From: Scatophagus argus
Taxonomy: Eukaryota; Chordata; Actinopteri; Scatophagidae
Reading direction: 5' to 3'
NCBI RefSeq assembly: GCF_020382885.2
Contig: NC_058513.1
Span: 3,301,408 to 3,365,407, forward strand
DNA: 64,000 nt
Shown one piece after another: positions 56,946 to 59,688 of the stretch. The position numbers were made by a program, and so were the translations under genes. Position 1 is the stretch's first letter; every line of letters starts with the position of its first letter. Under the pieces are notes generated by a model, which worked only from the letters and a program-made list of their open reading frames with translations, searched no databases and was not told the DNA's origin.

Positions 56946-56954
56946 AACTGAGAT
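56946..56954 (+). repeat. target-site duplication, LINE 3' side
   Basis: AACTGAGAT, identical to 59680-59688. It directly adjoins the LINE tail; its AGAT part overlaps in sequence with the AGATTCA tail unit. Confidence 0.75.
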
Positions 56955-59581
56955 TCAAGATTCAAGATTCAAGAGTCTTTATTGTCATTATGCAAGCATA
57001 ACGAAATTTTGTGCAGATTCTCAGCTTCAAAACACACTTATAAATAGGAAAATAAAAAATTGCACACCTTAGAAGAAAATATAAAAATATAAAATACAAA
57101 GTACAAAATGCAGAATACAGAGTGAGGTAGATAAAACAAAGTGCACTAGTGCCAGACTATGTGTATGAGTGTTTCACTGTAGGGGGGTTATTGCTTTAAC
57201 AGCTCTGGGGAAGAAGCTGTCCCTGAGTCTGTTGGTGCTGGTTTTAATGTTCCTGTACCGCTTTCCTGATGGAAGCGGTACAAACAGTTTGTTGCCCGGG
57301 TGGGTGGGGTCTGTGGCAATGCGTCTTGCCTTCTTCTGGACTCGGGCAGTGTAAACTGAGTCCAGATCTGGTAGACTGCAGCCCACAATCCCCTGTGCTG
57401 TCCTCACCACCCGGGCTAAATCTTTCCTGTCCTGTGCTGTGCAACTGCCATACCACACAGTCACACTGAGACACAGGATGCTTTCGATCGTGGCTCTGTA
57501 AAAGTTCACGAGCAGCTGAGTAGACAGTCCAGTCCGTTTCAACTTCCTGAGAAAGAAAAGCCGCTGTTGGGCCTTTTTCACCAGGTGTGAGGTGTTCACT
57601 GACCAGGAGAGGTCAGAGGAGATGTGGATGCCCAGGAACTTGATGCTGTCTACCCGCTCAACCGCCTCCCCAAGTATACAGACGGGAGCGTGATCAGTTT
57701 TCCTGGATCTCCTGTAGTCTACTATGACCTCCTTGGTTTTGCTGATGTTCAGGATGAGGTTGTTCCTGGAACACCACTGTGTCAAGTTCTGGACCTCATC
57801 TCTGTAGTGGGTCTCATCATTGTTAGATATGAGACCCACCACAGTGGTGTCGTCCGCGAACTTGACGACCATGTTTGTGGGGTGGATAGCAGAGCAGTCG
57901 TGTGTGTACAGTGTGAATAAGGCAGGGCTGAGTACACAACCCTGCGGCGTGCCAGTGTTGACGATCAGTGGGGCTGATGTAGACTCCCCTATCCTCACCA
58001 CCTGGGGCCTGTTGGTGAGGAAGTCCCTGATCCAGGAGCAGAGTGAGTCTGACAAACCCAGGTTGTGGAGTTTCAGGGCCAACATGTCCGGGGGGACAGT
58101 GTTAAAAGCCGAGCTGAAGTCCACAAATAGCATCCTGACGTAGGTGTTAGGATGCTCCAGGTGAGTCAGTGCCGTGTGAAGTGCTGTCGAGACGGCATCC
58201 TCCGTAGAACGGTTCTCCCTGTAGGCGAACTGCAGACTGTCCAGGCCAACGGGGATGGCGTCCTTGATGTATCTCAGGAGGATCCTCTCGAAGCACTTCA
58301 TAATAACCGGGGTCAGAGCGACAGGTCGGTAGTCGTTGAGACAGGTGATGGTTGATTTCTTTGGAACAGGCACAATGATGGAGGACTTCAGACACACCGG
58401 GACCATGGACAGCTGTATGGACAGGTTGAAGATGTCCAGGAAGACTCCTGCCAGTTGGTCAGCGCATGACTTCAGTGTGCGCCCTGACACCTTATCTGGA
58501 CCTGCAGCCTTGTTGGTGTTGACTCTCCTCAAAGCGGAGGTCACTTGGTGCAGCTGCAGGACGAGAGGCTGCTGCTGCACCTCTGGCTGAGGAAGGTCAG
58601 CAGTTCTTCTGCTGCTTGGAGAGTCGAAGCGTGCAAAGAAGCTGTTTAAGGTGTCAGGTAGGGTCAGGTCATGGCTGACCTGCTGGTCATTCCGCTTGTA
58701 GTCCGTGATGGTCCTGATGCCTTTCCACATGTTACGTGGATCGTTGTCATTGAAGTGCTCCTCAATGCGCTGCTTGTGCCTGTGTTTAGCCAGCTGGATG
58801 CCCTTTTTCAGTTCTTTCCGGGCCCTGCTGTAAGCCAGCCTGTCTCCTGACCTATAGGCTGCATCCCGGGCTTTTAGCAGGGGCCACACTGTGCCGTCCA
58901 CCCATGGTTTTTGATTAGGAAAAACCGTGATTGTCTTTGTGGGTAGGACAGCATCAGTACAGAAGTGAACATAGGACAACACAGCTGACGTGTACTCGTC
59001 CAGGTCAGCGTCTGCTTTGAACACTCCCCAGTCTGTGTGCTCAAAGCAGTCCTGTAGGGCTGAGGAAGCCTCCTCAGTCCACACCTGGATGGTTCTGGTG
59101 GTGGGTTTGGTCCTGCAAATCAGAGGTCTGTAGGCAGGGATCAGCTCCACAGAGATGTGATCTGACATGCCCAAGTGAGGAGCTGCTACAGCCTTGTATG
59201 CCCCTGGAATGTTACAGTATACCTGATCCAGTATATTGCAGTCTCTGGTCGGAAAGGTGATGGATTTGTGGAATTTGGGGAGAACAGCCTTTAATTCTAC
59301 ATGGTTAAAGTCCCCAGCCACGATCACAGCCGCCTCTGGATTAGCGTCCATTTGGCTGCTAATCAGGCAGTATAGCTCCTCTAGCGCTAGCTTAGCGTTA
59401 GCCCTCGGTGGAATGTAGGTCGCTATGATCATGACCGAGCTGAGTTCTCTAACCAGTTTAAACGGTCTGCACTTCACTGCTAGATATTCCAAGTCGGGGG
59501 AGCAAAAAGTTCCTATTATGTTCGTTGCTGTACACCACGAGTTGTGAATGTACAGCGCCAAACCTCCGCCTTTGGTCTTGC
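56955..59581 (-). mobile_element. L2/CR1-type LINE, 5' truncated, frame intact
   Basis: A non-LTR retrotransposon on the minus strand. Its 5' end near 59581 lies inside the endonuclease domain. Its 3' UTR ends in 'aataaagactcttgaatcttgaatc', a short heptamer repeat used as tail. The 5' truncation is the usual result of incomplete target-primed reverse transcription. The absence of any stop over the whole remaining ORF suggests a recent insertion. Its 5' end is joined to a tRNA-Leu sequence, and the direct repeat AACTGAGAT encloses both. Confidence 0.92.
57174..59579 (-). CDS. LINE ORF2: endonuclease (partial) and reverse transcriptase
   Basis: The product nicks target DNA and reverse-transcribes its own RNA. 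The frame runs uninterrupted for about 800 codons; the usable start near 59561 is only a TTG, because the true N-terminus was lost by 5' truncation. Numbering from that TTG, the apurinic-type endonuclease C-terminal part has [19 protein letters not shown] at 83-86 and SDH at 133-135. A linker follows. Reverse transcriptase blocks are IIVPVPKK (395-402), [11 protein letters not shown] with catalytic Asp481, TPQGCVLSP (538-546) and KFADDTTV with Asp570 and Asp571. The C-terminal region has the FLGIHIS and LPSGKRYR motifs of the L2/CR1 group. All RT residues are intact, but endonuclease catalysis is lost with the missing N-terminus. No promoter of its own remains. Confidence 0.93.
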
Positions 59582-59589
59582 AAAAGTTT

Positions 59590-59672
59590 TGTCAGAAGTG
59601 GGATTCGAACCCACGCCTCCAGGGGAGACTGCGACCTGAACGCAGCGCCTTAGACCGCTCGGCCATCCTGAC
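59590..59672 (-). tRNA. tRNA-Leu (anticodon CAG)
   Basis: The 83-nt minus-strand sequence starting GTCAGGATGGCCGAGCGG is a complete class II tRNA. The acceptor GTCAGGA pairs with TTCTGAC (one G-T pair), the anticodon arm CTGCGTTCAGGTCGCAG carries CAG, there is a long variable arm, and the T arm has GGTTCGAATCC. It matches vertebrate tRNA-Leu-CAG almost completely. There is no encoded CCA and no intron. Seven bases (ATATATA) precede it, and AAAACTTTT follows, like a Pol III leader and terminator. It lies inside the repeat that brackets the LINE, so it may be a retrocopy and not an ancestral gene; internal promoter boxes are intact, so it could still be transcribed. Confidence 0.95.
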
Positions 59673-59679
59673 TATATAT

Positions 59680-59688
59680 AACTGAGAT
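59680..59688 (+). repeat. target-site duplication, tRNA side
   Basis: AACTGAGAT, the partner of 56946-56954. It lies seven bases outside the 5' end of tRNA-Leu. Confidence 0.75.

Follow-up and report, generated by a model that had tools for sequence, protein, structure and literature searches.

In the usual model, a tRNA-derived SINE acquires its LINE tail through a switch of a LINE reverse transcriptase between LINE RNA and a tRNA-type RNA, and several kinds of RNA/LINE hybrid have already been described. A survey of the human genome, as far as its text was covered here, lists 21 tRNA/LINE-1 chimeras that typically contain tRNA halves, predominantly antisense (Law and Burns 2026, PMC13174262). 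Twin priming is suggested for the antisense cases, and the target-site duplications measure 9-19 bp in eight checked examples (PMC13174262, same portion). U6 RNA has been found joined to L1, L2, and RTE elements, and the sections consulted of that work link template switching to the origin of SINEs (Mol Biol Evol 2015, PMC4476161). Among 40 platypus U6/L2 chimeras in the same sections, 72.5% have duplications of 1-9 bp; the vertebrate table begins with Xenopus in the part covered, which names no fish. In the passages seen of another study, zebrafish L2 in chicken cells mostly generates short duplications, with some short truncations and also, according to unpublished data of its authors, template jumps; within zebrafish, 3' microhomology is reported for about 80% of the ZfL2-2 elements (PMC2666801). 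A published fish tRNA/LINE fusion was not found in a literature search of thin coverage, which took in little of the subscription literature.

The locus considered here lies in a stretch of 64,000 nucleotides of the Scatophagus argus genome (the window). Exact 9-nt copies of AACTGAGAT are located at 56946-56954 and 59680-59688 on the forward strand. Read on the minus strand, the order is ATCTCAGTT, ATATATA, an 83-nt tRNA-Leu(CAG), AAACTTTT, a LINE, and again ATCTCAGTT, with the following features:

59680-59688, minus strand: target-site duplication, copy at the 5' end, ATCTCAGTT on the minus strand.
59673-59679, minus strand: 7-nt leader ATATATA of the pre-tRNA, between duplication and tRNA, presumed to be transcribed.
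59590-59672, minus strand: complete tRNA-Leu(CAG), 83 nt including the discriminator A, without CCA, from ARAGORN and Rfam, with A-box-like and B-box motifs.
59582-59589, minus strand: 3' trailer AAACTTTT with a Pol III-type T-run at its end, from the sequence.
56955-59581, minus strand: 5'-truncated LINE, about 525 nt short of full length, ending in (TTGAATC)n, from sister alignments.
57174-59591, minus strand: open reading frame, 805 codons long and containing RVT_1, from ORF and domain match.
56946-56954, minus strand: 3' copy of the target-site duplication, an exact repeat that abuts the LINE tail.

The first-pass annotation had described this arrangement of repeats, ATATATA, tRNA-Leu(CAG), T-run, and immediately following 5'-truncated LINE, and its coordinates are borne out by repeat placement, ARAGORN, Rfam, and the sister alignments. 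Its T-run stands, but the first A of AAAACTTTT is the discriminator base of the tRNA (59590), so the trailer is AAACTTTT. Without a spacer, the second RNA is followed by a 5'-truncated LINE that runs in the same direction, as in template-switch chimeras, and the junction lies at the natural end of that RNA, directly after the T-run of the trailer.

A single insertion, in which the LINE reverse transcriptase would have jumped end-to-end onto a primary Pol III pre-tRNA-Leu, is the favored reading, with a probability of roughly 80%. It is supported by the LINE boundary, which falls exactly at the end of the T-run, by a duplication that makes sense only for a single insert of tRNA plus LINE (9 versus 2 nt), and by the resemblance of trailer and leader to a Pol III primary transcript. 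The annotation had proposed the same event, and this half of its reading is well supported; its other half, a snapshot of SINE birth, is taken up below. The tRNA and LINE together appear to be a rare and unusually clean case of a known hybrid-forming route.

Like the human tRNA/LINE-1 chimeras, the locus has its tRNA at the 5' end of the LINE and both parts within one target-site duplication; unlike those treated in the covered portion of that survey, the tRNA is full-length and sense, it has a leader and a Pol III trailer, and the LINE is a fish element not of the L1 type (PMC13174262). Twin priming was considered and rejected, since it would give the opposite tRNA orientation (PMC13174262, same portion) and the tRNA here is sense. 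With U6/L2 and U6/RTE chimeras the locus shares the union of a Pol III RNA and a LINE whose tail is a simple repeat, as well as a similar duplication range (1-9 bp in platypus), but the RNA is a tRNA instead of U6, and the platypus U6 parts are almost all 5'-truncated in the sections consulted (PMC4476161). The MINE and tripartite chimeras of Magnaporthe likewise involve a template jump from LINE RNA to another RNA, with direct repeats around the whole, although, in the text available, they consist of a fungal LINE and an unrelated non-coding RNA and occur in many copies (Gogvadze 2007, PMC2104539). Pre-tRNA retropseudogenes also represent unprocessed pre-tRNA copied into a genome, yet those cases are human, depend on L1 machinery, and are retropseudogenes, not LINE fusions (Schmitz 2004, as cited in the covered part of PMC4476161). 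In the parts covered, a full pre-tRNA in sense orientation on a fish LINE is a combination described in neither PMC13174262 nor PMC4476161.

The junction was searched for in 570.7 Mb of the genome (48 contigs) using a query of 281 bases. With 40 of 80 candidates scored, 42 matches were obtained, two of them the window's own locus; among the 40 others, LINE homology begins exactly at 59581 (query position 180) in 36 and further inside the LINE in four (query positions 181, 193, 194, and 211), and none reaches the trailer or the tRNA. At the 14 other loci for which the junction was displayed, the LINE continues upstream, typically as CTTCAG/GCAAGACC, in place of the window's CTTTT/GCAAGACC. The two parts meet at the base directly behind the T-run, where the LINE starts with G (59581), and the joint exhibits neither microhomology nor an extra base. 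The boundaries, the repeat, and the upstream continuation of the LINE in sister copies are thus seen directly.

Twenty of the 40 other junction matches were taken at full length as sisters. Their main alignments are 96.7-99.6% identical, some spanning only part of the LINE, and this high identity suggests that the insertion is probably young. Sixteen of the 20 share, to within a few bases, a start at the AAGATGGCGGC end, which lies about 525 nt upstream of the junction; judged by these alignments, the window copy is a mildly 5'-truncated member of a probably young family. The full-length copies (16 of the 20 sisters, L031-L050) start near (T)CCAAGATGGCGGCGCGGG, which presumably resembles the YY1 site at the beginning of human L1.

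The LINE part spans about 2.6 kb and its tail is (TTGAATC)n. Its frame contains a full-length RVT_1 match, and about 801 of the 805 codons are wholly LINE; the tRNA end and the trailer supply all or part of each of the first four. Protein relatives at 78-80% amino-acid identity are found in Xiphophorus, Oryzias, and Merluccius, on which basis the host was assigned to the teleosts. The make-up of the element, namely its reverse transcriptase domain, simple-repeat tail, and short or absent duplications, suggests a place in the L2/CR1 group. An identity with Rex1 was also tried and is not supported, the match to what we take to be the Rex1 primers being poor, with 7 and 8 mismatches. A long-shot search among viral contigs found no relative of the LINE.

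The complete tRNA-Leu(CAG) is called at 59590-59672 on the minus strand by both ARAGORN and Rfam (54.8 bits). A-box-like and B-box motifs are present, assigned with patterns that we take to describe these boxes, and TTTT at 59582-59585 lies between the promoter motifs and the LINE. A primary Pol III transcript carries U at its 3' end, and its first base lies slightly upstream of the mature 5' end, by a few positions. The ends of the insert (leader, U-type trailer, no CCA) match such a transcript and therefore look like those of an unprocessed pre-tRNA, as had been suggested earlier from the missing CCA and the terminal T-run; in sequence, both ends fit. The untrimmed state of the pre-tRNA ends suggests that the template was nuclear.

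Seven other tRNA-Leu(CAG) loci occur in the same genome when up to three mismatches are allowed, and all seven are called by ARAGORN. Their variable arm reads CTCCTCTGG in every case versus CTCCCCTGG in the window's tRNA, one base different. The leader ATATATA and the trailer AAACTTTT are absent from all seven, though identical copies elsewhere may have escaped view, and for this reason the absent source gene weakens the case for a joint insertion only a little. Four of the seven are found on one contig (C16) with flanks that are alike (L062-L064 and L066), and probably constitute a duplicated gene group. Elsewhere in the window, a complete tRNA-Arg(TCG) is encoded at 10351-10423 on the minus strand. 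The region 3' of it (10245-10341) contains a piece at 10316-10341 that presumably resembles the 5' half of tRNA-Lys. Beyond this piece come a T-run (about 10284-10299), a G-run, and, at 10245-10274, a SINE head that looks tRNA-derived. At another locus (L061), the T-run of a tRNA-Leu is likewise followed by a similar SINE head.

An intact, gene-like tRNA, with no source locus of the same leader and trailer among the seven others, would also suit a pre-existing tRNA-Leu gene. In that case a 5'-truncated LINE landed just behind the terminator at a later time, and the 9-bp match is due to chance. This explanation, the chief alternative to a joint insertion, is unlikely, as it needs two coincidences. 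The first is a LINE that ends exactly at the T-run end of a tRNA gene on the same strand, which would be expected by chance 0.0003-0.002 times in this genome (a rough figure that uses assumed numbers of LINE copies and tRNA genes). The second is the 9-nt repeat upstream of the tRNA. With tRNA and LINE treated as a single insert, the longest end repeat is 9 nt and stops exactly at the leader; with the LINE taken by itself, it measures 2 nt. When random pairs of window pieces were compared, with a repeat that spans the tail end and may lie anywhere in the 60 nt upstream of the tRNA, at least 9 nt were reached in 0.25% of 20,000 trials.

A third, unrelated copy of the 9-mer is located in the window at 22921-22929 on the minus strand. 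Shuffled windows contain the 9-mer 1.14 times on average, and at least three copies in 13 of 100 shuffles; the word being this common, the evidence lies in its placement, not in the word itself. Because the tail is (TTGAATC)n, the ATC of ATCTCAGTT (56952-56954) is assignable to either tail or duplication, while TCAGTT (6 bp) is unambiguous. The first-pass annotation had noticed that part of the repeat also fits the tail unit and regarded 5-9 bp as informative; the overlap holds, and the count becomes three ambiguous and six unambiguous bases. The three ambiguous bases would also be able to pair the primer with the RNA tail, a property that can be set beside the 3' microhomology of ZfL2-2 in the passages seen of PMC2666801. 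With the flanks joined, the longest frame across the join is 51 codons, and the site is taken as non-coding. The scanned prokaryotic contigs, a long shot, lack the empty-site pattern.

End repeats were also measured around the sisters. Fifteen of the first 20 were used (13 with a full 5' end and two truncated), five being left out as they have no recognisable tail at the expected place. None of the 15 has an end repeat of at least 6 nt, and the lengths are hardly above the mismatched-pair null. The reading that this LINE family never makes duplications, derived from these 15 sisters, was revised in the light of truncated copies from a second set. Among 487 first-look candidates, 40 were retrieved, of which one is the window, 11 were already in the first set, and 28 were taken; 22 of the 28 were used, all 5'-truncated, and six were left out as their 5' end lies outside the stretch taken. 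Repeats of at least 5 nt occur in six of these 22 versus 6% of mismatched pairs, and of at least 7 nt in two versus 0.2%, while 16 have no repeat of at least 5 nt. The longest (9 nt, GATTAATTA) is found at a single locus (L059).

One sister (L055, contig C18, 4706600-4707740) interrupts a SINE-like repeat that the window contains in uninterrupted form at about 10082-10120. The repeat serves as a natural empty-site reference, and the insertion looks blunt by eye, within a run of C. The LINE family seems to make both blunt ends and short duplications, with 9 bp as the largest size observed; a duplication of that size is possible, yet unusual for this family. Since a clear duplication is missing from most of the sisters examined, the lack of one around the LINE alone is not unusual, a point in favor of a pre-existing gene. 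At another of the 22 truncated sisters (L068, contig C12, 6400462-6401781), an inverted LINE piece is apparent upstream, as in twin priming. None of the 48 sister loci contains masked letters. ARAGORN detects no tRNA at the 22 truncated sisters, no RNA gene adjoins any of them, and Rfam gives no match in 40 sister loci (28 of the second set and 12 of the first 20). RNA/LINE fusions are accordingly rare in this LINE family.

The joint insertion favored here would correspond to one retrotransposition event in the teleost germ line. The LINE endonuclease would nick the target after ...AACTGAGAT, and the 3' end of the nicked strand would prime reverse transcription on the LINE RNA tail, where GAT can pair with the terminal AUC. 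Having copied about 2.6 kb, the enzyme would leave the LINE RNA and jump, with no overlap, to the U at the 3' end of the primary tRNA-Leu(CAG) transcript. It would then copy the pre-tRNA to its 5' end, and joining of the new end to the target would leave the 9-bp duplication around both parts. We infer the order of these steps, the nuclear pre-tRNA template, and a template jump in place of prior RNA ligation. The same DNA structure would be yielded by a pre-tRNA ligated to a 5'-truncated LINE RNA before insertion, with the fused RNA copied in one run, and RNA ligation is one route named for U6/LINE-1 chimeras in the covered portion of PMC13174262. Such a ligation is nonetheless very improbable here, as the LINE RNA must first break at this place. 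Moreover, a Pol III transcript with a U-OH end is not a usual substrate of RtcB, the ligase that the same work names for this route.

The proposal that the joint insertion captures the birth of a SINE is weak and, in the form given, not supported. In tRNA-derived SINEs the promoter reads into the LINE tail without a terminator, and here TTTT (59582-59585) precedes the LINE. Such SINEs are short, non-coding, and multicopy, and here the LINE is 2.6 kb long and retains most of the reverse transcriptase gene in its frame of about 801 codons, while the window's own locus alone crosses the junction among the 42 matches (40 of 80 candidates scored). The annotation had suggested a search for other tRNA-Leu/LINE junctions at the same T-run; of 80 candidates 40 were scored, and as these show neither such a junction nor a second copy of the trailer, an amplified chimera was rejected to that extent.

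As an early SINE founder, the locus would be read by Pol III past its 4-T terminator and on into LINE sequence, with remobilisation of the resulting fused RNA via the LINE tail. The tRNA promoter motifs and the LINE tail do lie on one unit, the terminator has just four T, and template switching is proposed as the origin of LINE tails in tRNA-derived SINEs in the consulted sections of PMC4476161. A founder is nevertheless extremely improbable, given the terminator between promoter and tail, the 2.6-kb body with most of the reverse transcriptase frame, and the single copy among the scored candidates (40 of 80).

On present evidence, the event is of the same kind as the proposed first step of SINE formation, and not a SINE in the making. 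A broader proposal, speculative and very improbable, is that the reverse transcriptase of a fish LINE family with its own repeat tail makes end-to-end jumps onto nuclear pre-tRNA as it is being transcribed, and that a weak 4-T terminator, which Pol III might occasionally pass into the LINE, would make this the first step to a new SINE family before loss of the LINE body. Chimeras of tRNA with LINE-1 and of U6 with L2 are already published; what is new here is the sense, full-length pre-tRNA version. A sense, full-length pre-tRNA with intact ends on a fish LINE is the geometry that the SINE model requires.
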